Origin: Bacteroidales bacterium
Lineage (GTDB): Bacteria > Bacteroidota > Bacteroidia > Bacteroidales > ML635J-15
Assembly (NCBI GenBank): GCA_016937855.1
Contig: JAFGVU010000039.1
Location: 1-35,515 of the forward strand
Length of the DNA: 35,515 bases
Reading direction: 5' to 3'
Shown here: positions 13,689 to 31,957 of the stretch, one piece after another
Position numbering within the stretch: position 1 is the stretch's first letter
Layout: every line of letters starts with the position of its first letter
Made by a program: the position numbers and the translations under genes
Notes under the pieces: generated by a model
Databases searched by the model: none
What the model was told of the DNA's origin: nothing
What the model saw: the letters and a program-made list of their open reading frames with translations, nothing else

Positions 13689-16600
13689 TTAATCTACCAA
13701 TTCATCCGCCAACAACTTCGCCTGTTCTAAAACCGTTTGAACAGCTTTTGCTTGTTTGTCTGGTGGATATCCATGTTTTTTCAGGAGTTTTTTAACTGTT
13801 ATGCGGAGTTTTGCCTGAACGCTTTCCCGGATGGTCCAGTCAATGCTTGTGTTTTTACGAATTACATCAACCAGTTCCTGGGCAATATGCCTTAATATTT
13901 CGTCGCCAAGGACTTTTACTGCACTATCATTTACTTCAAGAGCATCATAAAAGGCAAGTTCTCTATAGTCTAATCCTAAGTCAATGCCTCGTTTGTCAGC
14001 CTCTTTAACTTTTTTTGACAGATCAATAAGCTCTTCAATAATCTGAGCTGCAGTAATAACATTGTTTTGATACCTTTTTACTGATGAATCCAACATTTCA
14101 GAGAATTTTCTTGCCTGTATAAGATTGGTTTTTCGTCTGCCTATTATCTCATCGTTTAAAAGTTTTTTCAATAATTCCAATGCAAGATTCTTATGTTTCA
14201 TGCCTTTTATTTCGGCAAGGAATTCGTCCGACAAAATTGAAATATCCGGTTTGCTAATACCTGCTTCCTTGAAAATATCAACAACACCATCTGATACAAC
14301 TGCTTCGGAAATTATTTGCTTTATTGCTGTTTCTATTTCTTCGTCACTTCTTGTTTTCTCACTTTGTGTAACTTTTACTATTCTGGCTTTTATTGCTTGA
14401 AATAATGCAAAGTCGTCTCTAATTTCCAATGCTTTAGGGTGAGGAACTGAAATTGAAAAGGATTTAGCTAGTGCTGTAATATTGTTTATAAATCTATCTT
14501 TCCCATTCTCTAATCCAAGAATATAATCAGCAGCCTGGATAGGAAATTGTAATTTTTCTTTGTTCCCTAATGAGAAAAATGCCTTATAATCAAAGTTTTC
14601 AAACATTTGAGAAACAATTTCATATTTTTCCAACATTACCATTACAGCTTCTTCCTGATCGAAAGTTGGTTTCCCTTTACCTCCCGATTCTGTATAAACT
14701 GAAAGTGCTTTCTTTAAGTCGTTGGCAATACCTAAATAATCAACAACCAATCCGCCTTCTTTGTCTTTATAAACCCGATTAACTCTCGCAATGGCTTGCA
14801 TCAGATTATGTCCACGCATTGGCTTATCTATGTACAGGGTATTCATACATGGAGCATCAAAGCCGGTTAGCCACATATCACGCACAATAACCAGTTTCAG
14901 ATTGTCTTTATCATCTTTAAGCCGTTCACCAATTGCTTTTCTTCTTGGTTTATTGCGAATATGTTTTTGCCAATCCAAAGGATCGGATGATGAACCTGTC
15001 ATTATCACTTTTATCATTCCTTTTTCATCATCCTCGTTATGCCAATGCGGACGGATTGCAACTATTTCATTGTACAAGTCAATGGCTATTCTTCGACTCA
15101 TACATACAATCATTCCTTTGCTAAACGATGCGGCATCTCTTTGTTCAAAATGATCGACCACATCCTGAGCAACCAGTTTTATTCGTTGCTCATTTCCGAC
15201 AATGGCTTCCAAGCGAGCCCATTTTGCTTTTAATAATTGTTGCTTGTCACCATATATTTCAGCTTCTTCGGCTACCATATCGAATTCGGCATCTACCTGT
15301 TCTTTTTTATCTTCTTCGAGATGAATCTTTGCCAGACGGCTTTCATAATATATACGAACGGTTGCACCATCATCAACGGCTTGCTGAATATCATAAACGT
15401 CAATATAATCGCCAAAAACAGCCTGAGTATTTTTATCGGTTGATTCTACCGGAGTTCCTGTAAAGCCAATAAAAGATGCATTTGGTAAGGCATCGCGCAT
15501 GTGTCGTGCAAAACCATCAATAAAATCATATTGACTGCGGTGAGCTTCATCAGCAATTACAACAATATTCCTTCTGTCAGATAACATTGGATAGCTGTCT
15601 CCCTGTTCTAATGGAAGAAATTTCTGAATAGTTGTAAATACAATTCCGCCTGAAGAAACTGACAACAAATCTTTCAATTGATCTCTGTTCTCGGCCTGAA
15701 CAGGAGTTTGTCTTAACAAATCGCTGCAATATGAAAATGTTTCAAACAATTGGTCATCTAAATCATTTCTGTCTGTTAAAACTACTATGGTTGGATTATT
15801 TAATTCTAACACTATTTTTCCTGCATAAAATACCATACTTAGGCTTTTGCCAGAACCCTGAGTATGCCAAACTACTCCGGCTCGTTTGTCGCCGTCTTCG
15901 CTTGTAGCTTTTATTGTAGTTGTGATAGCTTTTTTTACAGCATAGAACTGGTGATATGCTGCAATCTTTTTTATTACGCTGTCTTTGGCAGTTTCAAATA
16001 CTGTGAAATGGCGAATTAGTTCAAGCAGAGCTGATGTATTTAGCATGCCTTTTATCATCACTTCCATCTGTGGAATAGATTCTTCTGCCATTACTTTTCC
16101 ATCAATAGACTTCCATTGCATAAATCTTGAAAAAGGTGCTGTAAGAGAACCTGCTCTAGCTTCCCATCCATCAGAAATGAGCAAAATTGCATTGTAAGTG
16201 AATAATGAAGGAATTGCTTGCTTATATGTTTGTAATTGGTTAAATGCTGATTTGATCGTTGCTTTTTCGTCGCTTGCGTTTTTTATTTCGATAACAACCA
16301 ATGGTAAACCGTTTACGAATAATATCAAGTCGGGTCTCTTATTGTTATTGTTCTCAATTACAGTAAACTGATTAACAACTAAAAAATCATTTTTTTCAGG
16401 ATTTACAAAGTCTATTAACCAAACTTTATCTCCAACAATTCGGTTATTACTTCTATACTCCACATCCACACCTTCGGTTAGCATTTTATGAAAAGTATGG
16501 TTGTTCTGGTTTAAATCAGGGCTGTTTGTTCTCAATACTTTTTTTAAAGCATCTTCTTTAGCATCAGATGGAATATTTTTATTTAATCTGTGAATGGCAT

Positions 16601-16754
16601 TTTTTAGTTTTTCTTTTAATACTACTTCATTGTAATCTCTTTCCGGATTTTCTCCATCTGGTGATATTACAGAGCCATGTATATAAGAATAACCAAGCTC
16701 TTGAAGTTCTTCAATAAAAAGCTGTTCTATATGATCTTCTGTGATAAGTGCCAT
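13689..16754 (-). CDS. hsdR: Type I restriction endonuclease subunit R
   Basis: The 1021-residue protein has a complete HsdR layout. The N-terminal nuclease domain carries Asp142 (RPDLILF) and Glu156-x-Lys158 (VVIEIKNA). The superfamily 2 motor domain has Walker A at 300-304 (TQGSGKS) and a DEAH box ([14 protein letters not shown]), with later helicase motifs ([16 protein letters not shown]-like [16 protein letters not shown]). A helical C-terminal domain binds the methylase. The complex translocates DNA in an ATP-dependent way and cuts unmodified DNA. It starts 3 bp after hsdS. It appears intact, so the restriction system is probably active. Confidence 0.95.
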
Positions 16755-16757
16755 AAT

Positions 16758-18134
16758 TTACTTTGATTTATTATAAGCTATTTTTGGTTCTGCTGCCATT
16801 GCCAAAACCTCAGTTTCTTCAATTATATTTTCTGCTGATGATACATCAATTTCTCCTGATAGAAGTTTTGGGAGGAGGAAGTCTCTGGTTTGCTTTAAAG
16901 ATTCAGATTGCACAAAATTTAATTCCTTTGCCTTCCATATTTCAATGATAACTTTTGAAAAATTTTCAATAATTTCTTTTTTGGGGATAACAAACTTAGG
17001 AACTTGAAGTCCGTCAATTTTTAGCATATTCACAGTAGTACCATTTGAGCATCCGACAATTTGCTCTCTGATAGAAGGTTGCATAATTGTATAATACAAA
17101 AACTGATTTGTAATATTCGATCTCTCCAAAGGCGTTACTTTGTAAATATGGTGAGAAAATATTCCAATATCACCAAAATACGTCGGAGTTATAGCAGGAA
17201 AACCTATAAGTAAATATTTGTGTCCTTGCTCGGTATTAGTAACGATGATATCTCCGGGTTTGATTAAATGTCTTTCTTTATAATCTCCAGAATAAAATTT
17301 TATCCCTTTATATTTGTATCCTCCTCCTTCATAAACGGAATTAAGATTATGCATTGGAATTCCATTTTCAAAATCAGTCAATCCACTACCTTTATAACTT
17401 AACCCTCTAAGAGCTTCTATATGGTTTTTAAATATATCAACTTTCCACCCTTTCGGAATCATTCCCAATTCACTTTCCACCATTTCGCCCCCTGAAGATT
17501 TGTATGGGTTGCCATTTTTATTCGGTTTACCCTGAGCAAAGTCGAAGGGAAAGTCAAAATCAACAAACCATTGCTTAAAAACAGCCTGAGCTATTTCTTC
17601 CAGTGTTTTGTTCATTTGGTTGTTTAATTCTATTTTGTCGTCAAGAGAGGAGAGAATTTCGGCTATGGCGCGTTGGGTGGGGAGGTCGGGGAAACTAAAT
17701 TCTAAAGATTTTAAAGTACTTCCAGAAATCTCTCCAAAAGTAGAACCTGATGATTGAGATTTCAAATACTCAACATTATCTTTTAATAAATAATACACAA
17801 ATTCATTATGTGCTATCTTTTCATCAGTAATCAAACTTTTAAATCCTTGATTTGTGGCTAATTCATTGCTTGCTATTGCTAAATATCCGACAGGAGCTCT
17901 TGAGGTTAGTAAAACAGTATTTTTAGGAAGAATTTTTGCACTCGACTTTTCCAAACCTAAATCTGTAATGTTTCTCTCACCATAACCGATATATTTGGAA
18001 TTGTAATTAGATAAATCTTTAGGAGTTATCCATGATATTGCACCATTCCAATAGCTAGATTCTTTTGTTGATGGAGTTCCACCGCCAACAATTTCAGCAA
18101 TTTCTCCTAATTTATATGTTTTCCAGATGGTCAT
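16758..18134 (-). CDS. hsdS: Type I restriction-modification specificity subunit S
   Basis: Two target-recognition domains are visible. The first starts at the N-terminus (WKTYKLGEIAEIVGGGTPST) and ends with a conserved coiled-coil linker (QRAIAEILSSLDDKIELNNQM). The second begins after ESELGMIPKGWK and ends with the LLPKLLSGEIDV helix. Between them the usual linker is lengthened by FDFAQGKPN, encoded by an inserted palindrome (17530-17549). Two different recognition domains predict a bipartite asymmetric site. The ATG directly abuts the stop of the cyclase-like gene (TAA then ATG), and hsdR follows after 3 bp. Confidence 0.95.
   Translation of the reverse strand: MTIWKTYKLGEIAEIVGGGTPSTKESSYWNGAISWITPKDLSNYNSKYIGYGERNITDLGLEKSSAKILPKNTVLLTSRAPVGYLAIASNELATNQGFKSLITDEKIAHNEFVYYLLKDNVEYLKSQSSGSTFGEISGSTLKSLEFSFPDLPTQRAIAEILSSLDDKIELNNQMNKTLEEIAQAVFKQWFVDFDFPFDFAQGKPNKNGNPYKSSGGEMVESELGMIPKGWKVDIFKNHIEALRGLSYKGSGLTDFENGIPMHNLNSVYEGGGYKYKGIKFYSGDYKERHLIKPGDIIVTNTEQGHKYLLIGFPAITPTYFGDIGIFSHHIYKVTPLERSNITNQFLYYTIMQPSIREQIVGCSNGTTVNMLKIDGLQVPKFVIPKKEIIENFSKVIIEIWKAKELNFVQSESLKQTRDFLLPKLLSGEIDVSSAENIIEETEVLAMAAEPKIAYNKSK
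17530..17549. repeat. In-frame palindromic repeat inside hsdS
   Basis: The sequence CCCTGAGCAAAGTCGAAGGG is a copy of a short dispersed element of the form CCCTGAGC...GTCGAAGGG that I know from many Bacteroidota genomes. On the coding strand it yields FDFAQGKP, which interrupts an otherwise standard HsdS linker between the two recognition domains. Confidence 0.6.
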
Positions 18135-18980
18135 TTATGCTGTTTCAATAATTAGTTTTAATTCGTTGCAATAATTATTGTATTGAGGTTGAATATTTTT
18201 ACATTTTGCCAAGATTAGTGCTTTGTAAAATAATTCTATCGTTTTATTCCAGTGTCTTATACTATTTCCTTTAAAATTAGCTTTAAAACTTTTTAATTGC
18301 TCTATTTCTGAAAAGGTACAGCTTTGAAAATCAACCCAAGACAATTCATATAAGTTAATGGTTTCTCCCTTCTCATTAATTGAAATAGGGAAGAATATTA
18401 TTTCTTGATTCAATTCTTTATTGAGCTGTATATCATATAAATAATCAAAACCTGCATTTTCTTTTATTATTTTCAGATCACTTATTACTTCATCAGAAAT
18501 TATAATTCTCATACCTGATATATTAGTTGTTTCAGAGGTTAAGTATGCTCTTGAAATTCCAGCTCCAATTGGATTAAGATTGTTATTTTTATCTCCATTT
18601 ATCATGGATGATATATCATTAAATCTAATAGACCAATCTTTCACAATTCCACAGCGAATAAAAGGAGTATATTCTTCTTTTTCACTAAATCCAGAATAAA
18701 AAGTAAACGTATTACTGAATATTTGCTTAATTACTTTTAAAAGATTCCCAATTGAATAAGATTCCAAATAAAAGCAATCACTGAATGATTTCATAAAAAC
18801 TTCCTCGTTAGAATGTTTTTTACCTTGATTATTTTCAGTAACATAAGTTAGAAATTGAGTTGCTAAGCTTGAATAAATGCTGTTCAATATATTTGCTTTC
18901 TGGGCAAAGCTTCTATTTGAATCCAGAACAATACTTTTATATCCAAGTACGTCGATAAATGCACAGTATTTAATATCCAT
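18135..18980 (-). CDS. Class III nucleotide-cyclase-like protein
   Basis: The 281-residue protein shows the motif set of the cyclase/GGDEF-like fold. Asp10 lies in CAFIDVLGYKSIV, where the first metal Asp of class III cyclases sits. Asp68 lies in MKSFSDCFYL (second metal position, with Lys64 before it). Later come RCGIVKDW (109-116) and PIGAGISRAYLTSE (137-150), the latter typical of the 'GxAxxxAYxLE' segment in this family. Proteins of this FIDxLGF type are frequent in defence islands, and related cyclases make cyclic nucleotide signals in Pycsar. The gene lies 6 bp after the nitrilase-like gene and abuts hsdS. No dedicated effector gene is adjacent. Cyclase activity is not proven. Confidence 0.6.
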   Translation of the reverse strand: MDIKYCAFIDVLGYKSIVLDSNRSFAQKANILNSIYSSLATQFLTYVTENNQGKKHSNEEVFMKSFSDCFYLESYSIGNLLKVIKQIFSNTFTFYSGFSEKEEYTPFIRCGIVKDWSIRFNDISSMINGDKNNNLNPIGAGISRAYLTSETTNISGMRIIISDEVISDLKIIKENAGFDYLYDIQLNKELNQEIIFFPISINEKGETINLYELSWVDFQSCTFSEIEQLKSFKANFKGNSIRHWNKTIELFYKALILAKCKNIQPQYNNYCNELKLIIETA

Positions 18981-18986
18981 ATTTTC

Positions 18987-19892
18987 TTATTTAAGTTTTT
19001 GTTCTTTTGTTTCTCTTTTAATATAACTTTCCATATATCCAGGAGGCTGAGCTTTAAACTTTGCTTTAGGAGTAGTGTCCTTTGTCCTTGGCTCTTTTTG
19101 TTCTTCATCAATGGCTTTTACAGGTACTTTTAATATTTGAGTTGTAAAAAGTTTGCTTCCTTCGTGCTTATAGATATACCGTTTAGGTTCATCTTCATAA
19201 GGTGAAAATACTAGGCTTCCCCCGTAGTAACCTGTATTGCATATTATTACATTACAAAAAACTAATCTTGAAATGGCTTCAGCTAAAAAATAATATGATT
19301 TTGTATCCATATTATATGATATCACTATCATATGATGAATTTTCCCCTTATAAATCAGAAATCGCTCAATATCAAAAAAGTCTGAGCAAATTGCGACACC
19401 AATTCTTCCGTATATGCCCGCATCAAGAATATACATTTTAGTGCTTTGGTATTCTTTTTTTTCTTTTTTTTCAAAGAAATCTTTTTCCATATAAGAGAAA
19501 AATGTTTTACCAAAATATGTTGAAGAAACACTGCCAGATCTTCCTAATAAAGGCCAGTTTCTTGGAACATGAATTACTGCATTATTTGCTACCTGATTAG
19601 GAATAGGTTCAGAAAAATCTAACCCTGCAATTACAACAGCTCCACATTTTTTAGAAAGATTTGCTAAATCTTTTTCTCTATTCAGAGCAACTGATAATTC
19701 AGGAATAATAATAATGTTAGGTTGTTTCTCGATTGGAGCAGAATTAAAACTAATAAATCCATCTTTTATTTCCTGCCAAACTCGATTTGCTTCAAGAGAA
19801 CTCATCTGTACACCAGCATACTTATTTTCATTCCACGCAATTGAATTATCAAGTGTAGTTTGAATTAATCCTATATTTAAAAAATCATTCAT
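18987..19892 (-). CDS. Carbon-nitrogen hydrolase (nitrilase-like) protein
   Basis: The nitrilase-superfamily catalytic triad is readable: Glu65 (IIIIPELSV), Lys129 (TYFGKTFFS) and Cys169 (VAICSDFFD). The usual strand pattern lies around it, for example GAVVIAGLDF and NVIICNTGYYGGS. The C-terminal 45 residues are Lys/Glu/Pro rich and outside the domain. The superfamily hydrolyses or condenses amides and nitriles. Nitrilase domains are known as C-terminal fusions of certain defence reverse transcriptases (UG1/DRT1 type). Here the gene is separate but overlaps the reverse transcriptase stop by 4 bp (ATGA), so the two products are likely made in fixed ratio and work together. Confidence 0.8.
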   Translation of the reverse strand: MNDFLNIGLIQTTLDNSIAWNENKYAGVQMSSLEANRVWQEIKDGFISFNSAPIEKQPNIIIIPELSVALNREKDLANLSKKCGAVVIAGLDFSEPIPNQVANNAVIHVPRNWPLLGRSGSVSSTYFGKTFFSYMEKDFFEKKEKKEYQSTKMYILDAGIYGRIGVAICSDFFDIERFLIYKGKIHHMIVISYNMDTKSYYFLAEAISRLVFCNVIICNTGYYGGSLVFSPYEDEPKRYIYKHEGSKLFTTQILKVPVKAIDEEQKEPRTKDTTPKAKFKAQPPGYMESYIKRETKEQKLK

Positions 19893-22800
19893 GATAAGTT
19901 TTCTTTGTTTTCAATAAATGGATTATTTGAATTTGAAAGTTGCTCGAAACTTATTGGTATTAGCTGTCTTGGCAAATTATCTTGAACAGAAATCTGATAT
20001 TTCTCCAATATTTCACAGGCTTTAGAACAATAAATTTTCAAGTCCTCCAGACTTCTAATATGCGGTGATTCTTTTAGCGTATCATCGGATGGTATAAATC
20101 CTTTGACTTGATTATCCCCTGATTTTATCCAAAGAAATGTTTCCTTATCCTTATTGCTTAGACAAGCATCAATAATAGCATAGGTATAGGATGAAACACT
20201 AATATCTTTCAATTTACTTTTAATTAAGTTAGGTAATGCAAAATTTTGTTCTTCACTATTCCACATCCATGGCAACCTTGTATTCCTTATGAGCAATGAA
20301 AATAACATAATACCAAGACCAAAAACTACTGAAAGGGTGTTGTCCAAGAACTGCGTCAAAGATTCAGGTGTATATCTTTCATCTGTGATCATTACTTCAC
20401 GATCTCTCATTTTTATAGGATTATCTCTGACAGTACTTTTCCATGTTTCCCAGCTTCTTTTATTTTCAGAATTAAGCCAGACTATTGGCATTAAATAATT
20501 TGAAGGATGAATAGGGTCTTTTAAATCCAAATTGAAAAGATTGAGAAAATCCTTTTTACGTGATGCATCTATTCCTTCAGTTATTTGAATAATAATCTGC
20601 AAGCAGGTCCATTCTGAAATACTTGGATCAAATAAAGAATGGTTATTCTTCTCAATATTGTCATTCAAATTAGAAACCCAATCGTAAATTGACAAGAAAT
20701 TTTTATCCTCAAACTCAATATGGTGTTTGATGTTTTTATGCTTATCTAATATTAAGTTCAAAAGGTCCTTTTTATCATCTTTAGCTAGTATGGATTTTGC
20801 CAAATCAAAAAACCAGCCCTCATTGGAGATATTTGTCAATGCTTTGTTTAAAAGTTCAACATCAATAATACCTTCAAGAAAACTGTAATCGGGAGTAAGT
20901 TTAATAAGGCTAATAGCTGATTCTTGGTTTTTATTGAGTAAACTAATGACAGGCAATAATTTTGTGTTAATATCTACTCTATTGTGCCCTTGAAGCTTGT
21001 TTACAAACCATATAATAAAACTGTTTATATTCTTAATATCTGTTTTTTGAAATAAGCAATATTTTTCAAGTTTTAACTTTGTTAATGACTTATTAATTCT
21101 TTTAACATCTATCTTAATTTCATTATCATTTGCAATCTGGGGAAGAGTAGAAATAACTAACATGAAAATTTGAAACGATATTTGAAAATATTCTTTTGGC
21201 TCTTGACTTTGTTTTTTTAATACCTTTTTAAGAAAGTTCTCTTGATAAACCTCTTCAATGAACTTATAATAACTTGACTTTTCTTCTTCCGAATTAAATT
21301 TTGAATTCAACAAATAGCTTGTTCTATTCAAGATTCGGTCTGCGATTACAGACATTACTAAAGAATACAAGAATGAATTAGATAAACAAGATGAAATACC
21401 ATTTCCTTTTAATTCATCAATTTCATCAATAATTCTTCCAAAAGGAGCATAGCCAGTTTGAGAACAATACTCAATTAATCTCACCCAAAGTCTAACTTTT
21501 TGATGGTTTTCTTTTGCTGCTTTTAAGATTAATTCAAATATATATTTTTTGAGTCTTACACTATCGTCTTCTATTGATTTGAAGATTTTTTTTTCTTCTT
21601 CTTTTATGCCAATAATAAAAGTACAAGCCTCTTTAGCAAATTTAGTTTTGCTTCTAAGCAACTTATTGTCTACTTGATATTTATCTAAATGGATTGCATT
21701 ATTAAATTCAGAGAACAATAGTTCGGAAGTATTTTTTCTTAATTTTTCAATCTCTTTTTTATGCTTATTGGAATAAATACTTAAATCCTTCCTTAATTCA
21801 TAAATTCCTGAATAGTCCTTTCTTTTTCTAGGGATCAAACGAGAAAGCATTGTCGCAGCAAATGAAATTCTTGTATCTTTTCTTAGTTCATGGTCAGGAA
21901 AATCTGTAATTAACAGATGTTCTAAATCAGCTATTAATTGTTTTTCCTCATTTTCAGTTAGTAAATCAAATTCTGTATTGTTAATTGCTGATACTTTTGC
22001 TAATGTTTGAGTCATCAGCGGTGATGGAAATTTTGGATTTAATACTGTCGATTTTTTTGCGGCATTTTTAATTTCTGGGGTATCTTCTCCTATTTTTAAT
22101 TTATTCAAATAGTTTGCAAATTCTGTTGGTTCTGTTTTAGTAATATTAATTACGGCTCCTGTATTAAATTTTTCTAATAATTTTTCATATTCTAAAACCC
22201 ATTCAGAAAGTTGCTCAAAATCGTAGGATAAAAAAACATGATCATCAACAAATCTAAAATGAGCTATATTCTTATCTTTTTGAAGTATTTCATTTACTTT
22301 GCAATCTACCTCTAACAATGCGACATTTGCTAAAAATCCTGCAACAAATAATCCTGTTGGAATACCATCAAAATCATTACTAAAAATTTGAATATCTTTA
22401 AGTTCTTCTGGCTCTTTCCAACCCCTAATGTCCAACCGGAAGTTGAGTAATTCTGAAAGTAATTTTTCAAATTTTACATCAGGTACGTTTCCTAAATAGT
22501 AAGTCTTAATATTTTTAAGAATGACACCGACCTTAGTTTTTGGATAAAATTTCTCTAAATCAATACTTGCCCAATAAAGTTTTTTAAAATTAGCATCCTT
22601 TTCCCAATAATCCTTGGTTAGATATTCTACTTTAAGATGATTATTAGTAAGTTCATTATTCTCAAATGCTATTTTTTCAGCAACTTCTTCAATATTTTCA
22701 TCAATTGCTTTTATAGGATCTTCATTAAACGATTTTGCATTTGCCATAATCCTAGTGGTAAGAGAGATATGTCTTCTGTACAAAGGCCAACTTTGATTCC

Positions 22801-23254
22801 ACTTTCTATAAATATTCCCATGGGAATTTCTGTACCAACCGAATTTAATTACATCTTTATTATTTTCATTTTCATACCAAACACTTATAAATAATCTATT
22901 CCCATAACTCCATGAAGGCATTTGATAATCTAGTTCGGGTCCAATAATATTTACAACAGCCAACCATACAACTTGGTCTCTTACTGCAAATAAGAACGTT
23001 TGCCTTGTCCTTGCTTCTTCTTTTTCTGTATCATACCCCTTTGGAAAAGGTATTGGTTTGATTTTATTTAACTGAAAAGTTCCTTCAAGTATTTCTTCTT
23101 TAATTTTAGATAATTCAGCATTTAGATTAATCTCAAACTCTGCAAGTTCAATCTCATTAAACCAAATATCTCCAATCTGATATGCTCTTTTTGCTTTTTT
23201 CCAAGCCCATAACAAATTTTCCTTTTTTACTATTTTTTCTATTATCTTACTCAT
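19889..23254 (-). CDS. Reverse transcriptase with long C-terminal extension (UG/DRT-like)
   Basis: The polymerase domain occupies about residues 40-420. Motif A is SIDLEKFYP with Asp232. A motif B-like GIPTGLFVAGFLAN follows (298-310), then the catalytic FVDD at 335-338 (motif C). The N-terminal motifs (QTFLFAVRDQVVW, YGNRL) resemble those of 'unknown group' bacterial reverse transcriptases, not group II intron or retron enzymes. No maturase or HNH domain is present. The remaining 700 residues are Lys/Glu/Asn/Leu rich and probably helical, with no recognised domain. At 1121 residues it is about the size of RT-nitrilase fusions, but the nitrilase is a separate downstream gene. It overlaps the primase gene by 8 bp. 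It is AT-rich compared with the flanking hsd genes. A role in phage defence is inferred. Confidence 0.85.
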   Translation of the reverse strand: MSKIIEKIVKKENLLWAWKKAKRAYQIGDIWFNEIELAEFEINLNAELSKIKEEILEGTFQLNKIKPIPFPKGYDTEKEEARTRQTFLFAVRDQVVWLAVVNIIGPELDYQMPSWSYGNRLFISVWYENENNKDVIKFGWYRNSHGNIYRKWNQSWPLYRRHISLTTRIMANAKSFNEDPIKAIDENIEEVAEKIAFENNELTNNHLKVEYLTKDYWEKDANFKKLYWASIDLEKFYPKTKVGVILKNIKTYYLGNVPDVKFEKLLSELLNFRLDIRGWKEPEELKDIQIFSNDFDGIPTGLFVAGFLANVALLEVDCKVNEILQKDKNIAHFRFVDDHVFLSYDFEQLSEWVLEYEKLLEKFNTGAVINITKTEPTEFANYLNKLKIGEDTPEIKNAAKKSTVLNPKFPSPLMTQTLAKVSAINNTEFDLLTENEEKQLIADLEHLLITDFPDHELRKDTRISFAATMLSRLIPRKRKDYSGIYELRKDLSIYSNKHKKEIEKLRKNTSELLFSEFNNAIHLDKYQVDNKLLRSKTKFAKEACTFIIGIKEEEKKIFKSIEDDSVRLKKYIFELILKAAKENHQKVRLWVRLIEYCSQTGYAPFGRIIDEIDELKGNGISSCLSNSFLYSLVMSVIADRILNRTSYLLNSKFNSEEEKSSYYKFIEEVYQENFLKKVLKKQSQEPKEYFQISFQIFMLVISTLPQIANDNEIKIDVKRINKSLTKLKLEKYCLFQKTDIKNINSFIIWFVNKLQGHNRVDINTKLLPVISLLNKNQESAISLIKLTPDYSFLEGIIDVELLNKALTNISNEGWFFDLAKSILAKDDKKDLLNLILDKHKNIKHHIEFEDKNFLSIYDWVSNLNDNIEKNNHSLFDPSISEWTCLQIIIQITEGIDASRKKDFLNLFNLDLKDPIHPSNYLMPIVWLNSENKRSWETWKSTVRDNPIKMRDREVMITDERYTPESLTQFLDNTLSVVFGLGIMLFSLLIRNTRLPWMWNSEEQNFALPNLIKSKLKDISVSSYTYAIIDACLSNKDKETFLWIKSGDNQVKGFIPSDDTLKESPHIRSLEDLKIYCSKACEILEKYQISVQDNLPRQLIPISFEQLSNSNNPFIENKENLS

Positions 23255-24290
23255 TCATATCAGATTGATTAATATAACACTCTGAAATATCCTTATATTT
23301 CTTATCAATTTCTATTTTTATTACTTCTTTACCCACATCAGCCAAATTTTCTTTAACCTTCTTGTAAAACAACAATCCGGCACTATCATTATCAGGCATA
23401 ATAATGGGGACATATTCTTTAAAAAGGAATGAATACTCTTTTTTAAACCCTGAAGCTCCAATTATTCCTACGGCATTATATCCCATAGCAAGTGAAGATA
23501 AGCAATCAGTAACTCCCTCTGTAATTATAACTTTATCGCCAAATTGAAGTTGATTAAAAATCGAAGTATTGTAAATTTCAGTATTTACATCATATAAGTT
23601 TATATATCTAATTTTTGAAGTAGGTGATAAACTACGACCTTGTATATAGTCGATTTGATTCTCAAAGTTAAAAAAAGGGAAAAGAATTGTTTTATCCCAC
23701 CATATTAAACCGTAAAAAAATTCTCCATTTCTATTAATATATTCTCTTGCCACTCCTGACTTTAATAACCTTTCTACACCCCAACTATCAACAAGTTTCC
23801 TGAATAATTCTTTGGCATTAAGTATATACCTAATTTTCTTTTCTTCAACTAGCTTTTCAGGAAGTTTTCTTTGAGTACATAGAAATTCTTTGCCTTCACC
23901 TGTAAGTTTTAAATTATTAATAATCCAACTATATAACTCTGGATCTTTATTATTGATATTTTTTCCTTTCTTGCTACTATTCCTAATTATTGGTGCTTTT
24001 TTAAGCGGTTTAAACGAGCTTCTTGGTATTATCCCAAATTCATTTGCTAACCAAAGACAAGCCTCTGAGAATGACCAGTTATAGTAATTAGATACTAAAT
24101 CAATAACACTACCACCAGCATTACAACCAAAACACTTCCAATAATTCTTTGATGTATTAAATTTGAGACTTGGAGATTTTTCTTCATGGATAAAGCATTT
24201 AGTTGTTTTTTTATTAACGACAATACCTAACCTTGAAGCAACTTCTAGTATGGGCAGTTTGTTTAATATTTCAGGTTCGAAGTTTATCAC
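23247..24290 (-). CDS. DnaG-type primase
   Basis: The protein has a CHC2 zinc-binding domain (Cys32, His35, Cys53, Cys56; KCFIHEE and WKCFGCNAGGS). A linker and a DnaG-type catalytic core follow, with TILFPFFNFENQIDYIQGRS. The TOPRIM motifs are Glu258 (VIITEGVTDCL) and Asp300-x-Asp302 (IIMPDNDSAG). At 347 residues it lacks the C-terminal helicase-binding domain of cellular DnaG. Such short primases occur in phages and mobile elements. Here, however, the gene sits far from the replication module and is fused by overlap (8 bp) to the reverse transcriptase. It might lay primers for that enzyme or act as a sensor of replication. Enzymatic competence is likely from the motifs; the partnership is inferred from context. 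Confidence 0.88.
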   Translation of the reverse strand: MINFEPEILNKLPILEVASRLGIVVNKKTTKCFIHEEKSPSLKFNTSKNYWKCFGCNAGGSVIDLVSNYYNWSFSEACLWLANEFGIIPRSSFKPLKKAPIIRNSSKKGKNINNKDPELYSWIINNLKLTGEGKEFLCTQRKLPEKLVEEKKIRYILNAKELFRKLVDSWGVERLLKSGVAREYINRNGEFFYGLIWWDKTILFPFFNFENQIDYIQGRSLSPTSKIRYINLYDVNTEIYNTSIFNQLQFGDKVIITEGVTDCLSSLAMGYNAVGIIGASGFKKEYSFLFKEYVPIIMPDNDSAGLLFYKKVKENLADVGKEVIKIEIDKKYKDISECYINQSDMNE

Positions 24291-24303
24291 TTTTTTATTT
24301 TTT

Positions 24304-25455
24304 TTAGTGTATTTCCTTCTTTATATACTCCTCCAATTCTTCTTTACTTGGCAATGCCACCATATATTTTTGCACAAATATATTTTGATCTAAACCTGCT
24401 GTTGCATATTGTACCATTGTATTGCCTTTTTCGGTACAAAGCAGAATTCCAATAGGAGGGTTGTCGTCTGGCTGCATTACCTCGTTTTTATAATAATTGA
24501 GATATGCATTTATTTGTCCGGCATGGCTATGCTTAAATTTTTCTGTTTTTAAGTCAATCAACACATGGCATTTCAATATTCGGTGATAGAAAACCAAATC
24601 AATAAAATAGTATTCATCGTCAATCAAAATGCGTTTCTGGCGATCCTCAAAACAAAATCCTTGTCCAAGCTCACGGAGAAAAAGTATTAAATGGTCTATG
24701 ATGGCTTGTTCCAGATTGCTTTCTGTTACCATTGCATGAGAGTTTAATCCAAGAAATTCAATTGCAAATGGCGTGTTAACTATATCTTTGGCTTGCAGCT
24801 TTACGGCTTGATGCTGAACCATTGCCGACAGCTTTTCTTTATCCTTTGATAATCCTATTCTTTCAAAATATAGGCTTTCAATCTGCCTTTTCAGTTCCCT
24901 TATCGACCATACACCTTTGGCACATTCTATTTCATAAAAAGCACGCTTTAATTCATCATCAATTTTAATCAATTCTACAAAATGAGAAAAAGAAAGATGT
25001 TTTAATATTTTATCCGGAGACAGACCGTACTTCTTAACAGGAGTACTAACTTCTTTAATAGTAGCAACAATATCCGATATATGGGGAACTAAATCGTCAG
25101 ACGGTGTCTGACTAATTTGTAATTGTTCAGACGCCGTCTGAACAATTCGTGATTTTTCTAAATATTCAGACACTGTCTGAACAATTTCAGGATAGCATAA
25201 ATAAAACTGTCTATAAATATTCAGATTTGTGAATGAAAAACCTTTTAGCCCATTATCAATTAATTGTTTTTCAAGAGTTCGAATTAATTTGTCACCATAT
25301 TTGGCTTTGTCCTCTCCATGTTGCTCAAATTCAACAATGTAATAACCAAAAAGCCAATTGCGAACTGTCAATGGTGTATTCACTGCTTTTGCCGCTATCG
25401 CCTGCAAATAATTTTGAGTTTCCTGTATTTTACTAACTAAATTATTAAAATCCAT
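24304..25455 (-). CDS. DUF1016 (YhcG-like) PD-(D/E)XK nuclease family protein
   Basis: The N-terminal DUF1016 domain is recognised by TVRNWLFGYYIVEFEQHG, followed by AKYGDKLIRTLEKQL and LNIYRQFYLCYP. The C-terminal nuclease domain reads DDEYYFIDLVFYH, then LIDLKTEKFK with Asp in place of the usual Glu, then GQINAYLNYY. The family is typically found inside type I restriction operons, which is the case here: it starts 3 bp after hsdM. Between the domains the peptide QTxSE/D occurs three times, each encoded by a DNA palindrome (25096-25181), making this linker longer than usual. The function is probably DNA cleavage or auxiliary defence. Confidence 0.85.
   Translation of the reverse strand: MDFNNLVSKIQETQNYLQAIAAKAVNTPLTVRNWLFGYYIVEFEQHGEDKAKYGDKLIRTLEKQLIDNGLKGFSFTNLNIYRQFYLCYPEIVQTVSEYLEKSRIVQTASEQLQISQTPSDDLVPHISDIVATIKEVSTPVKKYGLSPDKILKHLSFSHFVELIKIDDELKRAFYEIECAKGVWSIRELKRQIESLYFERIGLSKDKEKLSAMVQHQAVKLQAKDIVNTPFAIEFLGLNSHAMVTESNLEQAIIDHLILFLRELGQGFCFEDRQKRILIDDEYYFIDLVFYHRILKCHVLIDLKTEKFKHSHAGQINAYLNYYKNEVMQPDDNPPIGILLCTEKGNTMVQYATAGLDQNIFVQKYMVALPSKEELEEYIKKEIH
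25096..25181. repeat. Three palindromes inside the DUF1016 gene
   Basis: The palindromes lie at 25096-25112 (GTCAGAC / GTCTGAC), 25121-25147 (13 paired bases around a central C) and 25165-25181 (TTCAGACA / TGTCTGAA). On the coding strand they give SQTPSD, VQTASE and VQTVSE. The middle one contains GCCGTCTGAA. They look like repeated insertion or duplication of one short palindrome while keeping the reading frame. Confidence 0.7.
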
Positions 25456-25458
25456 TGT

Positions 25459-26979
25459 TTAAATTTTATATCCAATGCTTTCAAGGTTTTTTCTAATTCT
25501 GTTTTCTAATTCCGAGCTTTGTTGAAATTGTTCAGCCAGTTTTTCGGTTAATTCAGTCATTTTTTCATCAAATGGAATTCCGTCGTCTTCGATTTCTTCG
25601 TTACCAACATACCTTCCGGGAGTTAATACAAAATTATTTGCTTCGACTTCAGTAATTGAAGCAGATTTACAAAATCCAGCAATATCTTCATATTTGTTTT
25701 TGTCGGTTCTCCAAAGATGATAGGTTTCGGAAATTGAATTAATGTCATTATCGGTTAAGACACGATGCTTGCGATCAACCATTTCGCCCATTTTACGGGC
25801 ATCAATAAACAATATCTCGTTGCTACGGTCTCGATACTTTCCGTTTGTTTTATTCCTTGCCAAAAACCACAAACAAGCAGGTATCTGAGTATTAAAAAAC
25901 AGTTGAGAGGGCAGAGCAACCATGCAATCAATCAATCCAGCCTGAATCATATTCTTACGAATTTCTCCTTCGTTTCCTGAATTGGTGGTCATACTTCCAT
26001 TTGCCAAAACAATTCCTGCAGTTCCGTTAGGGCTGAGTTTATTAATAAACAACTGCAACCAGGCATAGTTAGCATTTCCGGTTGGGGGAATTCCGTATCG
26101 CCATAAAGGACTATCCTGTAGTTGTTCGCCACCCCAATCGCTTATGTTAAAAGGTGGATTTACTAAAATATAATCAGCTTTAAGGTCTTTGTGTTTATCG
26201 TTTTGAAATGTATCACCCAACTCGATTTTAGCATCTATGCCACGTATAGCAAGATTCATTTTGCACAAGCGGTGTGTTGTTGGATTACTTTCTTGTCCGT
26301 AAACAGCGATATCTCCAATTTTTCCACCATGGGCATCAATAAATTTTTCACTTTGAACAAACATTCCACCACTACCACAGCAACCGTCATAAATTCGTCC
26401 GCTGTATGGTTCAAGCATCTCAACTAAAAGTTTCACAATGCTTTCCGGAGTATAAAACTGACCTCCTTTTTTACCTTCGGCATCGGCAAATTGGCCTAAA
26501 AAATATTCATAAACTCTTCCTAATAAATCTTTGCTTTTATGTCCTTCTTCACGGAATCCAATATTTCCGATTAAATCGACTAATTCACCAAGACGCTTTT
26601 TATCTAGTGAAGGACGTGCATAATCTTTAGGAAGTACTCCTTTTAAAGATGCATTTTCTTTTTCGATGGCATCCATTGCATCGTCAATGTCTTTTCCTAT
26701 TGTTGGTTGCTTTGCTCTTTCATGCTGCAAATAATCCCATCTGGCTTTAACCGGAACATAGAAAATGTTTTCTGCCAAATATTCATCTTTATCTTCAGCA
26801 TCAGAAAACTCATCAGCAGAAAGCTTCTCAAATAAATCTTTGAAAGAATCTGAAATGTATTTCAAGAAAATGAGTCCCAGAACAACATGCTTATATTCAG
26901 CAGCATCCATATTGCTACGGAGTTTATCGGCTGCAAGCCAAAGAGTTTTTTCAAGTGTTTGTTCAGTATCTTTTGCCAT
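25459..26979 (-). CDS. hsdM: Type I restriction-modification DNA methyltransferase subunit M
   Basis: The 506-residue protein has all main HsdM signatures. It has an N-terminal helical domain ([20 protein letters not shown]), then [10 protein letters not shown] (174-182), the S-adenosylmethionine-binding motif DGCCGSGGM (198-206) and the catalytic NPPFN (274-278) for N6-adenine methylation. It is the first gene of a nine-gene operon and is preceded by a strong promoter. Methylation protects the host and the element from the linked HsdR. It is complete, with no frameshift. Confidence 0.96.
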
Positions 26980-27552: not shown

Positions 27553-28359
27553 ATGATTTTTAAGTATGAAGCATATAATTATTTATTAGCAGAATTAGGG
27601 CGACTAGATTATGTCGTTGAAATTTCTGAAATATCGGTTAAAGATTTCTTAAAGAAAATGGACCAATCCAATGACCCTGGGTCATATTTGAAGGAGAAAT
27701 CTAATGAATTTGGAATTATGGTTTCTTTTGACCCATCAAATAATTATTATAATCAAATTGCTCTTGGAAATATTTCAAATGTCTACCATTTAGGTGAAAC
27801 TTTCTTTTATGAGCTACAAGCTGAATTTAATAGCATATCTAATGAAGACTGGAAATTTGAACAAGGAAAAACAAAATTAGACCAAGTTATTTCTTTCTTG
27901 AAGGGGTTAAACAGAATTAATAATACTGATCAAATAGATGATTATTTAATCAATATTTTTGCTTATTATCATCAATTAAGAGTATATTTTTCACACAAGA
28001 AGACCACTTCAAAAGGTGAAATACATAGCAAATACGAAAATGCTATAAAGCACTTTGACATAGAATTAATGAAACGATATAAAGTTAAAAACTCACCCAA
28101 AAAGCTACAAGAAATTGATTTTGAAGATTATTTCTTATTTACTCAAATAACAAAAGATTTAGCTTTAAAAATTAGTTCTATTGGATATCCTAAACCAAAA
28201 GGATTAGCAGATTTGAAAGAAATAAGACGAATGAAGAAATTTAAAGACAATAGTGTAAGGTTAAATAAATCAATTGAAAATGCATTAATTACAAAATATA
28301 GCTTCATAAAAGAAAATGATTCTGACACTTTAGTTGAACAAATAATTAGCCACATTTAA
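27553..28359 (+). CDS. Protein with HEPN-type RxxxxH motif
   Basis: The 268-residue protein matches no named family. Residues 128-150 read DDYLINIFAYYHQLRVYFSH, with Arg143-x4-His148. This is the arrangement found at the RNase site of HEPN domains, set in a predicted long helix and preceded by another helix. A purine-rich AAAGAAAGAG precedes the ATG. HEPN proteins often act as ribonuclease toxins or defence effectors. The stop codon is only three bases before a tRNA-like RNA, and a second RxxxxH protein follows. The three may form one transcript. Nuclease function is an inference from a short motif. Confidence 0.6.
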   Translation: MIFKYEAYNYLLAELGRLDYVVEISEISVKDFLKKMDQSNDPGSYLKEKSNEFGIMVSFDPSNNYYNQIALGNISNVYHLGETFFYELQAEFNSISNEDWKFEQGKTKLDQVISFLKGLNRINNTDQIDDYLINIFAYYHQLRVYFSHKKTTSKGEIHSKYENAIKHFDIELMKRYKVKNSPKKLQEIDFEDYFLFTQITKDLALKISSIGYPKPKGLADLKEIRRMKKFKDNSVRLNKSIENALITKYSFIKENDSDTLVEQIISHI

Positions 28360-28362
28360 AAA

Positions 28363-28460
28363 GGGCATTTCGTCTAGCGGTCTAGGACGTCCGAAGCCAC
28401 ATTGAAATCTTGGTTTCAAGGTGATTTCGGGAAACGGGAGTTCGAATCTTCCAATGCTCA
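28363..28460 (+). tRNA. tRNA-Glu-like RNA with expanded anticodon arm
   Basis: Acceptor, D and T arms are intact. The acceptor GGGCATT pairs over 7 bp with AATGCTC, with discriminator A. The D arm GTCTAGCGGTCTAGGAC has the tRNA-Glu pattern. The T arm is GGGAG-TTCGAAT-CTTCC. A 4-base variable loop (AAAC) also fits tRNA-Glu. The anticodon arm is 42 bases instead of 17: outer stem TCCGAA/TTCGGG, inner CAC/GTG, then TTGAAA/TTTCAA closed by TCTTGG. Thus a nearly continuous hairpin replaces the 7-base loop and no anticodon is exposed. The total is 98 bases; CCA is not encoded. It is either a specialised tRNA mimic or a tRNA gene with an insertion. It lies between two genes for RxxxxH proteins. Confidence 0.6.
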
Positions 28461-28478
28461 CGACTAAAATATTTATTA

Positions 28479-29417
28479 TTGGACGAGTTTAAAATACATA
28501 TTGAAAGAATGCTCAAACCTTATCTGGAAATCGCAAAGATAACCGAACCGATTAGGAAAGTTCAAGAACAGTGGACGAACCAAGCAAGAGTTTTCCAAAA
28601 AGAAATTGAGCCAACTTTGGAACTTCAAAAAAATCTTGCTGAACCATTAAAAAACCTTCAAAATTCCTTTGAGAATATTAGTAAGATTTATGGTTATATG
28701 CCTAAATTAGATAATCCATTTTTGAAGCAATTAGAAGCCTTCAAAGAGATTGGAGAAAGACTTAAAGAATATACAAAAAGAATACCAGAACAATTTTTAA
28801 TAATAGCACAACATGGTTGGTTTATTGACTTGGATAGTGAGTTGGATTTTGCTTCACTAGTTGCTCATAGCATACAAGAAGGGAAAGTTCATAAAGCAAA
28901 TGAAATACTGGTAGATTATTATAAAACAAATTTTGAAAGAATTTTTAAAACCTTGATTAAAAGGCATTATAACAGAAAAGAAATTTTTGAAAGCATAAAA
29001 GAATCCTATGAGGAAAGTAATCATATTCTTTTAATTCCGGCTGTTCTAACGCAAGTTGATGGTATTTGTTTTGACTTTACAAAAAAGAAGTTTTTTATAA
29101 AAGAGAAAAAGAAAGAGAAATATAAGTATTTACCTGAAGTAATAGTAGTATTAGAAGAATCGGCTAGAAATTTCTCGGAGTTATACTTGTCTCCACTTCA
29201 AAATCAGACACCGATTATGGCAAGACAACAAGATATTAATAAATTCCCTTGCAAATTAAACCGACACGAAATCTTACATGGAATAAGCACAGATTACGGA
29301 AATGAGATCAATAGTTTAAAAGTAATTTCGCTTCTAAAATATGTTTCAGATTTGCTGACAGACCTTGATAATAAATCACTAAGCAATATAGCAGGCTTTG
29401 GCACAATTGCGGACTAA
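28479..29417 (+). CDS. Unknown protein with NRHEILHG motif (HEPN-like)
   Basis: The frame opens with TTG at 28479; an in-frame ATG at 28509 preceded by GAAAGA is an alternative start. The N-terminal 100 residues are helical and Glu/Lys/Gln rich (coiled-coil type). The C-terminal half contains IPAVLTQVDGI (about 186-196) and LNRHEILHGISTDYG (260-274). Arg262-x4-His267 again gives the RxxxxH arrangement. I recall proteins ending in 'NRHxILHG...YGTxxNSLKxxxLL' as a widespread uncharacterised family. No membrane segment is present. The gene follows the tRNA-like RNA by about 18 bp and is probably co-transcribed with it. Confidence 0.6.
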   Translation: MDEFKIHIERMLKPYLEIAKITEPIRKVQEQWTNQARVFQKEIEPTLELQKNLAEPLKNLQNSFENISKIYGYMPKLDNPFLKQLEAFKEIGERLKEYTKRIPEQFLIIAQHGWFIDLDSELDFASLVAHSIQEGKVHKANEILVDYYKTNFERIFKTLIKRHYNRKEIFESIKESYEESNHILLIPAVLTQVDGICFDFTKKKFFIKEKKKEKYKYLPEVIVVLEESARNFSELYLSPLQNQTPIMARQQDINKFPCKLNRHEILHGISTDYGNEINSLKVISLLKYVSDLLTDLDNKSLSNIAGFGTIAD

Positions 29418-29920: not shown

Positions 29921-31957
29921 TTACTTATCTATTAAACATCTAACATAATACCCATATACCGGCATACTATTCTCTGCTCTCTTCGAAACCCTCTCAAACC
30001 CTAAAAACCTTAATTCCTTTCCAATCTTTATTGGACTTAAATTGATTGAAGTTCGCTCCGAAATGTATTCAAGAAGATCTGTTGCAGTTTTAAATTCGCC
30101 GTTTTTTTCATCTGCAGGTGCAAAGAATTTCATTACTAAGTCGCGTTCCGGTGTTGAGACCTGGTACTTTTTGTTGATGTAATCGTTTTCTTTGATTTCG
30201 TCCGGAGTTAATTCAAACTCAAATTTAACTTTTGTAAGTAAATGATATGCTTGAGACCAAACATCATCAATATCAATTTCGTTGGTATAGTTCCAATCTA
30301 TGCTTTCAATCTCGAAACATAACCATCGTACTGATCCGTTTTCATCAGTAAGGAATTCCCATCTATCTGTGGATCCTATAAAACTCGCACGCCTTGAATG
30401 TACTGTTGGTCGCTTATCATAAGTTAACCTGGCTTTTACCTTGTCCTTTGAAAACATCGATTTAAAGGCATTTATCTCAGCTTTATCAGCTTGTGATAGC
30501 TCATCCAGATTAATAAGAAAATTCTCTGTTATTGCAATCATACTGTCCTTGTCCGTTGATATGCTTTCGGTAATGTAATCTTTAAGGTCCGTCGGACATA
30601 AAAAACGGCAAAATGTTGATTTTCCACTATTCTGTTTCGTACTTACTAAAACAAATGCCTGTTTATTAAAATAATGATCGTCTATTGCTGTTTTTACAGC
30701 TCTGACAAGCCACTTTTTGAAATGCTTCTCAAGTCGTTCTCTGTCATTGGTAATCAAAAACGATGTGAGCTTCAAAATGTAATCAGTACTGCCATCCCAT
30801 TCCGGAAGACTTTCAAAATATTTTCGAAAAACATGGTATCTCTGAACAAAATCAGACTTCAATAATGCTATCAAATGGTTGAGACTTATGTTTATATTGT
30901 CCTTTTGTAACTGGATAAACATATTGTTTTCATTCATCTCAAGCCATTCGGGATCGTCCTTTTTCTTGTACTCAAACTTATTGCTGATTACATTATATCG
31001 CAAATCGAAATTCTTACTTAAATAATCTTCTGTGATAATAAATTTATTCGAAGTGATTTTTGAATTTCTATCTGATTTATCAGGCACATTTGCCAAACTG
31101 CTATCATCATTGATTCGCTTATTCATGCTACGGATAACAATGCCATACTGTTTTGCAATATGAAATAATGTCTTGATGCTAATTCCACTATTGTTGTTTT
31201 TTAGACATTTATTGTATTGATCGTTGCAATTATCAGCACTATAGTCTTGATTATATTTACTTATCTCATGATAATAGTTCCGTCCGGATTCTCCGAACTC
31301 GCTCTCGAGTGCAAATCCAATCTTAAGCCATTCTTCGTAATTTGAAGTAATATCAATTCTTTTCCCATCAATTTGCTCGATAAGCTTTTCAACATCGTTT
31401 TTCATAATCTTCTCAGGATTGATCTTGAATATTTCGCAATTTGAATTATAGTAAAGATTGGGATCGTTTGACACAAAACATAACCTGGTAACATCTTTAC
31501 CTGAAGGATCGATTTTTACTCCGGTAATCTTTTCATAATATGATTGTGCTCGTAAAAATGCCTCTCGATGTTTTGTTACGCTGTTATCTGTACGAACCAA
31601 AATCTTAATCCCTTTTCCACTGGGACTTTCAAAACAGGCAAATGTAAACTTACATGACTCTGCTTTTTTCCGAACATCTGCGATGTTTTCAATTTTATCA
31701 ATATCCAGAATTATAATCCTGGAATATTCTTGCAAAAGATTTGATTTTCTACCTCCATTAAACATTCCGGAGGGAGTAAAAGCCGGCAAGGACTTTTTCC
31801 TTGCCGTATATTCACTTATTCTCTCTTCAGCAACAAGTTGTCTGAGACTATCAATGTGATGCTTAAACTTTCCTGTCCTAATCAATTCAAGAATTATCTC
31901 AATAGGCTTATTTGCAATAATCCTATTAAAATTCTCGAATATGCTAACTTCTGTCAT
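29921..31957 (-). CDS. BT4734-like primase fused to VapE/VirE helicase-like domain
   Basis: Residues 50-180 form a BT4734/VirE_N-type primase-polymerase domain, with the catalytic-type motif IIILDIDKI (81-89), SPSGKGIKI (111-119) and the later VTRLCFVS. A middle helical PriCT-like part (about 185-275) is followed by the VapE-type P-loop domain (about 365-640). The Walker A is KQNSGKST (441-448) and an acidic NFLINLDEL is likely Walker B. This combination is the standard replication-initiation protein of Bacteroidota prophages and satellites. A strong AAGGAGG precedes the ATG and overlaps the stop of the HTH gene. It is followed by a terminator. It probably acts at the repeat array at 32366-32639. 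Confidence 0.85.
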   Translation of the reverse strand: MTEVSIFENFNRIIANKPIEIILELIRTGKFKHHIDSLRQLVAEERISEYTARKKSLPAFTPSGMFNGGRKSNLLQEYSRIIILDIDKIENIADVRKKAESCKFTFACFESPSGKGIKILVRTDNSVTKHREAFLRAQSYYEKITGVKIDPSGKDVTRLCFVSNDPNLYYNSNCEIFKINPEKIMKNDVEKLIEQIDGKRIDITSNYEEWLKIGFALESEFGESGRNYYHEISKYNQDYSADNCNDQYNKCLKNNNSGISIKTLFHIAKQYGIVIRSMNKRINDDSSLANVPDKSDRNSKITSNKFIITEDYLSKNFDLRYNVISNKFEYKKKDDPEWLEMNENNMFIQLQKDNINISLNHLIALLKSDFVQRYHVFRKYFESLPEWDGSTDYILKLTSFLITNDRERLEKHFKKWLVRAVKTAIDDHYFNKQAFVLVSTKQNSGKSTFCRFLCPTDLKDYITESISTDKDSMIAITENFLINLDELSQADKAEINAFKSMFSKDKVKARLTYDKRPTVHSRRASFIGSTDRWEFLTDENGSVRWLCFEIESIDWNYTNEIDIDDVWSQAYHLLTKVKFEFELTPDEIKENDYINKKYQVSTPERDLVMKFFAPADEKNGEFKTATDLLEYISERTSINLSPIKIGKELRFLGFERVSKRAENSMPVYGYYVRCLIDK

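Follow-up and report, generated by a model that had tools for sequence, protein, structure and literature searches.

Do the genes lodged in a type I restriction operon form one defence system, and which of them belong to it? This question is raised by a contig of a Bacteroidales bacterium (JAFGVU010000039.1; all 35,515 nt analysed here are called the window), in which genes for a DnaG-like primase, a reverse transcriptase (RT), a nitrilase and a fourth protein stand between hsdM-yhcG and hsdS-hsdR. An initial annotation, made from the sequence alone, had described the four as one new cassette. Our data demonstrate that primase, RT and nitrilase are one recurring unit, whose order is kept across phyla beyond chance. 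We read it, with a probability of roughly 0.6, as a three-gene defence-associated reverse transcriptase (DRT) system of group UG6, which is carried as exchangeable cargo between hsdM and hsdS and in which a DRT1-like nitrilase would be licensed by the RT, the primase would work with the RT, and the fourth gene would be separate. This reading is based on gene identity, motifs, gene order, matching distances, the RT clade, the lack of room for an RNA gene and a DRT1-type nitrilase tail.

The genes hsdM, yhcG, primase, RT, nitrilase, the orphan fourth gene, hsdS and hsdR form a run of eight on the minus strand (13689-26979, Table 1), with intergenic gaps of at most 13 bp and overlaps of 8 and 4 bp. 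The position inside the type I operon, the four intact open reading frames (ORFs) and their spacings are as initially annotated: primase and RT overlap by 8 bp, RT and nitrilase by 4 bp, and a gap of 6 bp separates the nitrilase gene from the fourth gene. The latter directly abuts hsdS (0 bp), and 13 bp lie between yhcG and the primase gene.

In PADLOC the RT reached 656 bits with the model RT_UG6, 64.5 bits with the next-best model and 57 bits with Drt1a, while RTasNitrilase and RTasDnaG-like gave 317 and 254 bits for the neighbouring proteins. These matches, together with the conserved gene order, uphold the earlier view of a UG/DRT RT whose unit also comprises a DnaG-type primase and a nitrilase on a chain of its own. 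The claim of novelty did not survive, since the PADLOC-DB of 2023 already holds all three parts (RT_UG6, RTasDnaG-like, RTasNitrilase). The accessible part of the myRT paper also gives a nitrilase neighbourhood for an RT placed in UG6 (BBI33370.1), and it lists dnaG among occasional neighbours of RT genes, there with the RT class left unstated (PMC8934634). In a further source, available in part, 'class 3' UG/Abi RTs are defined by nitrilase or phosphohydrolase partners. The cassette may look unfamiliar because Pfam has no match at all for the RT and, for the nitrilase, none that passes the gathering cut-off. Mestre et al. 2022 reportedly defined the UG groups together with their partners.

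A single genome scan with a two-row RT alignment yielded 15 further UG6 loci, which span at least four phyla. They belong to Mucilaginibacter, Flavobacterium, metagenome-assembled genomes of Chlorobiaceae, Clostridia, Verrucomicrobia and Deltaproteobacteria, and, in nine cases, to Roseateles, Sideroxyarcus, Leptothrix, Pelomonas, Variovorax (two), Candidimonas, Burkholderia and Hydrogenophaga. All three proteins of the window match this UG6 type, and the order is the same: the primase gene is directly upstream of the RT gene in 15/15 loci, and the nitrilase gene directly downstream in 13/13 loci with enough sequence. Of the remaining two contigs, one stops within the RT gene (L017) and the other ends after the first readable nitrilase residues (the Chlorobiaceae locus L012, judged by contig number and length to be the same contig as L003 of the scan of phylum genomes). 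Counting the latter, the nitrilase gene lies downstream in 14/14 loci with sequence beyond the RT gene. Co-occurrence of the three genes is thus not limited to the window, whereas a type I operon as home and an orphan gene after the nitrilase gene were seen only here among the 16 loci. The system is rare, with matches in 2 of 395 phylum genomes including its own (E 1e-20). The UG6 RT had no match in phage or plasmid records (E 1e-5), and neither a genome scan with the single RT sequence nor a search of viral contigs gave a match.

Pairwise distances of RT, nitrilase and primase agree closely (r 0.980-0.995; 14 loci, window included), and in each of three Mantel tests of protein pairs 0 of 2000 permutations reached the observed r. 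These correlated distances show that the three proteins share their descent, not that they touch each other. Within the three genes, DNA identity among seven related loci was 0.81-0.85, against 0.54 just upstream and, for six of these loci, 0.50 just downstream. Since identity falls outside the three genes, the nitrilase gene seems to mark the end of the unit, and the flanks give no sign of a strongly conserved RNA gene. Taken together, the sequence comparisons point to a genuine DRT with three conserved genes; its kind is known but apparently uncharacterised, and it has the look of a phage-defence module. Genes for NO VEIN C-terminal, DUF2779, Schlafen AlbA_2 and AAA_21 proteins were seen in the flanks of three UG6 loci (L005, L006, L007).

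The catalytic residues of the RT, D232 and V336-D337-D338, are invariant in an alignment of 15 rows. A tree of RT domains (n=27) placed the window RT inside the UG6 clade with support of 100/99; this clade joins two UG29 RTs (99/97), and the retron-type (n=8) and group II RTs (n=5) lie apart from it. Grouping with intron or retron enzymes would have spoken against the initial annotation; the tree shows no such grouping of the RT. The tree program warned of long branches meeting, so that the join of UG6 and UG29 is less sure than the UG6 clade itself, and the group II rows are scattered rather than forming one group. Ten of 16 UG6 rows were used; two rows below the cut-off (L130, L131) were labelled 'other', 5 of the 12 loci of group II type (L122, L126-L129) were left out because they yielded no matching Y/F-x-D-D frame, and of the retron rows 6/8 were scanned in PADLOC while L071 and L084 were labelled by motif. 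An AlphaFold2 (AF2) model of the RT (pLDDT 71.8, pTM 0.73) shows an RT core together with an extended helical region at the C-terminal side. Its best Foldseek matches were group II intron RTs, with TM-scores by query length of about 0.2, and we take them to reflect the shared RT core only. AbiK, DRT4 and UG15 were aligned over 677-761 columns with low TM-scores.

In the window and in five UG6 loci Rfam detected neither a retron RNA nor an intron RNA; its only match in the window was a tRNA-like sequence outside the operon, and the five loci gave nothing. With gaps of at most 13 bp there is no room between the genes for a template RNA. This, together with the Rfam result, makes template-free or primase-started synthesis a better fit than a retron-like or DRT2-like scheme, although an RNA hidden in coding sequence is possible.

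The primase matched PF01807 (2.1e-14) and PF13155 (7.8e-8), and a profile of UG6 primases matched DnaG structures, the best being 2au3 (2.3e-23). The CHC2 residues C32, H35, C53 and C56, the TOPRIM residues E258, D300 and D302, and D334 are invariant in 16 rows. DnaG has a helicase-binding part, which is missing here, since the protein stops soon after the TOPRIM region (255-337 of 347). Among 14 genomes searched for RTs, two encode UG29 RTs, and both carry UG6 as well. Like the window locus, UG29 links a DnaG-like primase to an RT, but in one chain of about 2,500 residues, in which CHC2, DNAG_N and TOPRIM precede the RT, whereas primase and RT of the window are separate, overlapping genes. 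The UG6 primase profile matched both UG29 proteins (1.3e-25 or better); the UG6 nitrilase profile found no nitrilase in them. Because UG29, the nearest group, fuses primase and RT, the two may well act together, and by this analogy the primase probably serves the UG6 RT.

In the nitrilase, E65, K129, E136 and C169 are invariant (14 rows). A profile of UG6 nitrilases matched the DRT1 structure 9yfd with 2e-21, the only PDB match at 0.001, and these four residues align on identical DRT1 residues. Moreover, an invariant tail, F-K280-x-x-P283-P284-G285 (pattern K-x-x-P-P/A-G), aligns with T-K1219-T-Q-P-A1223-G of DRT1. According to the accessible part of the DRT1 report, the active sites of RT and nitrilase are both required, the C-terminal tail covers the active site of a neighbouring chain, K1219A or A1223F reduces defence to the level of a tail deletion, and DRT1 primes on its own serine, S402 (PMC13275509). 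Since nitrilase profile, catalytic residues and tail match, the effector step is probably as in DRT1 (UG1), but with the nitrilase as a separate chain. On the same partial account (PMC13275509), DRT1 is a single chain primed at S402, whereas the window encodes three chains including the DnaG-like primase. As for UG5, the window nitrilase matches RT_UG5-nitrilase (1.3e-32); this model describes a fusion, and the window RT was not matched by it.

The fourth gene probably stands apart. Its protein gave no match in PADLOC, NCBIfam or PHROGs, and in Pfam a single sub-threshold match and none to a cyclase. No match was found in 15/15 other UG6 genomes (E 0.01), while its own genome did match. Only the window's own copy was recovered among 100 relatives, in 395 phylum genomes searched with a two-row alignment, and in a motif scan of the collected loci, and searches of PDB (sequence and two-row profile), plasmids, phages and viral contigs were fruitless. 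Among 395 class genomes there was one 45% relative; 17 further rows of this search, short and with E 0.006-0.05, were taken as noise. The relative stands on a short contig with hsdR and an ORF that reads as recombinase-like, its upstream side is cut off by the contig end, and its genome gave no UG6 match, an empty answer that is weak when taken alone. D10, D68 and R109-x-G111 are kept in this relative. A two-row profile of the fourth protein scored 17.0 (hhalign) against 22 bacterial class III cyclases (PF00211 fold), and at least 5 of 100 column shuffles scored higher; the cyclase profile comprises 22 of 24 loci, two without the motif having been dropped, and such motif-based picking favours the motif. 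A single-sequence AF2 model was unusable (pLDDT 35.7). Judged by these comparisons, a class III cyclase fold is statistically unsupported and the protein is cyclase-like by motif only. Because the gene is unmatched in the 15 other UG6 genomes, has its relative near hsdR and finds no support from the cyclase profile, it is probably a separate orphan passenger and the operon's own cargo. Of the initial annotation, therefore, the single cassette stands for primase, RT and nitrilase and lacks support for the fourth gene, and the motifs stand (CHC2/TOPRIM, RT VDD, nitrilase Glu-Lys-Cys, D10/D68), with the class III cyclase fold unsupported.

For the hsd genes we compared related operons. HsdM was found at 38 places in 32 of 149 genomes, the window's own included in both counts; of the other 37 places, 20 were retrieved and 19 loci analysed (L027 was too short). 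HsdM and HsdS are both present in 17 of these, and the other two are pieces of the broken operon of one genome (G010). ORFs between hsdM and hsdS were called mechanically from 80 aa upwards: 14 of the 17 operons hold at least one and three hold none. Six of eight scanned proteins matched Pfam and two did not; the cargo genes of related operons include Schlafen, RhuM, SIR2-like, YhcG, integrase and DUF1828/1829 genes. Nearest to the window's operon is that of G063 (HsdM with 95% protein identity, no match to the RT), with 82-85% DNA identity through hsdR and hsdM and short matches in hsdS. Identity ends about 40 bp into yhcG (window 25415); G063 has a DUF1828/1829 gene and small ORFs in the hsdM-hsdS slot, and Schlafen and RhuM genes between hsdS and hsdR. 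The broken operon of G010 shares the yhcG gene (DNA identity about 80%, reaching as far as window 24362), and for this reason YhcG was probably an older cargo of the slot that arrived before the UG6 unit. This same-genus hsdM-yhcG copy lies in pieces on two contigs (L032, L033), and its hsdM is interrupted. Another locus (L048) has several hsdS-like pieces beside a phage-type integrase, like shuffling specificity loci.

Profiles of HsdM and HsdS matched none of 254 ORFs of 16 loci (the 15 other UG6 loci and L068; UG6 flanks covered to 10 kb at most, in some cases less because the contig ends), and an HsdR profile matched in L068 only. Since no Hsd match flanks the 15 other UG6 loci, the type I location, seen in the window only, looks incidental to UG6 in general.

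In the favoured three-gene reading, the RT would, as in DRT1, synthesise non-genomic DNA, and this DNA would both build and license an assembly of the nitrilase; infection would release this assembly, and the nitrilase would then halt or kill the cell (abortive infection). The DnaG-like primase may act together with the RT; in the simplest case it would supply a short RNA primer. Placed in the hsd operon, the unit would be expressed together with restriction and might, on a more speculative view, form a further barrier to phages that overcome restriction. In a bolder version, a dedicated DnaG-type primase starts the synthesis, the RNA-primed, template-poor DNA made by two separate enzymes assembles a stand-alone nitrilase and arms it by way of a lid of the DRT1 type, and UG6 serves inside this operon as a fail-safe for type I restriction as well; this version is tentative and rather unlikely as a whole. 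The interest of the locus lies in its primase and separate nitrilase, which can be compared with DRT1. Three questions meet here: how nitrilase-linked DRTs start DNA synthesis without a template RNA, what DRT nitrilases do, and why primases stand beside some RTs. Conserved nitrilase tail and primase active site make each step addressable by single mutants, and the window illustrates that the cargo of a type I operon can extend to a complete DRT system of several genes.

Several observations weigh against this reading. The literature searched gave neither an activity nor a mechanism for UG6. For the pair L005/L007 the drop at the unit ends is small (0.57-0.61 inside, 0.48-0.50 outside), and the lower G+C content of the cassette genes (0.27-0.31 versus 0.34-0.37 in the hsd genes) loses weight as an argument because the right flank of the operon is equally A+T-rich (0.299). 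The alignment posterior of the nitrilase tail is moderate (0.4-0.6), and a single-sequence alignment puts the tail elsewhere than the profile alignment. DRT1 was absent among the best 50 of 1050 Foldseek matches of the RT, and an RT profile search of PDB did not bring it up, so that likeness to DRT1 at the RT level rests on the PADLOC Drt1a match. The second acid of DnaG's last D-x-D is Ser, Asn or Ala in UG6 primases, and priming activity may therefore be altered. Finally, T415, T417 and S422 of the RT are invariant (15 rows), and T415 lies 77 residues past the second catalytic Asp, a distance (counted, not aligned by homology) like that of the priming serine S402 in the accessible DRT1 account (PMC13275509), so that protein priming is conceivable.

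These last two points bear on a protein-primed variant, in which the UG6 RT primes on a hydroxyl of its own and the DnaG-like protein is a sensor, a nucleic-acid binder or a TOPRIM nuclease. We consider this variant conceivable but doubtful. The CHC2 zinc ligands are kept in the primase, and a TOPRIM nuclease does not need them; UG29, furthermore, fuses the same primase layout to its RT. A TOPRIM protein beside an RT is also known from RT-Toprim retrons (by profile), and the accessible part of one report gives an effector role for that of retron-Eco2 (PMC13275509). That the RT has no role in defence and is instead a retroelement, mobile or domesticated (group II intron or retron), hardly deserves credence: it shares the RT fold, group II intron RTs head its Foldseek matches and the group II model matches weakly, but this model (NCBIfam TIGR04416) reached 37.4 bits against a cut-off of 300, the tree parts UG6 from all retron and group II RTs included, and Rfam detected none of the expected RNAs in the window and five UG6 loci.

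It is very unlikely that all four genes form one system in which the fourth would produce or sense a nucleotide signal. The short distance to the nitrilase gene and the retention of D10 and D68 in the one close relative would fit, but the gene is even tighter to hsdS, goes unmatched in the other UG6 genomes, has its relative near hsdR in a genome with no UG6 match, and scored against cyclases below at least 5 of 100 column shuffles. Improbable, too, is a PrrC-like guard, in which the surrounding type I enzyme silences the UG6 module until phage inhibition of restriction releases it. Precedent for genes inside an hsd operon is prrC in EcoprrI, as given in the accessible parts of two papers (PMC3874165, PMC2610378). 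As in the window, a second defence gene lies there within a type I operon, but it encodes a single anticodon nuclease held by the restriction enzyme (PMC3874165, in part), whereas such a hold would be hypothetical in the window. Moreover, the hsdM-hsdS slot hosts many unrelated genes, and UG6 seems not to need an adjoining type I partner, as its 15 other loci lack Hsd matches in the flanks covered (10 kb at most).

Table 1. Features of the window and of loci used for comparison (positions refer to the window unless a locus is named).
Feature	Position	Strand	Length	Evidence or remark
HsdM, type I methyltransferase subunit	25459-26979	-	506 aa	PADLOC MTase_I 4.8e-215
YhcG/DUF1016 PDDEXK nuclease	24304-25455	-		PF06250 1.2e-50
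DnaG-like primase, CHC2 zinc finger and TOPRIM	23247-24290	-	347 aa	PADLOC RTasDnaG-like 7.3e-76; GTG start
UG6 RT, long C-terminal helical region	19889-23254	-	1121 aa	PADLOC RT_UG6 2.7e-197
Nitrilase-fold hydrolase, predicted effector	18987-19892	-	301 aa	PADLOC RTasNitrilase 4.6e-95
Orphan fourth protein	18135-18980	-	281 aa	FIDVLG...FSD motifs; cyclase-like by motif only
HsdS, type I specificity subunit	16758-18134	-		PADLOC Specificity_I 1.4e-95
HsdR, type I restriction subunit	13689-16754	-		TIGR00348 1.5e-198, over its cut-off
UG29 RT	L118:1158-8741		2527 aa	CHC2, DNAG_N, TOPRIM, then RT
UG29 RT	L119:1506-9257		2583 aa	CHC2, DNAG_N, TOPRIM, then RT
hsdS-like pieces	L048:9152-12689			beside phage-type integrase
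Unknown ORF	27553-28359	+		weak or sub-threshold family matches only
tRNA-like sequence	28363-28460	+		Rfam tRNA 40.2 bits (cut-off 29)
Unknown ORF	28479-29417	+		weak or sub-threshold family matches only
VapE-like/PriCT-2 replication-type protein	29921-31957	-		of mobile-element kind

HsdM additionally matched the NCBIfam model TIGR00497 (hsdM) with 1.9e-53, under that model's cut-off. The tRNA-like sequence stands between the two unknown ORFs, divergent from hsdM, and had neither an ARAGORN call nor a blastn match in phages or plasmids (E 0.01). By reading of the sequence it resembles tRNA-Glu, and its anticodon arm carries an extra hairpin of about 32 nt. The operon is adjoined by the gene for the VapE-like/PriCT-2 protein.

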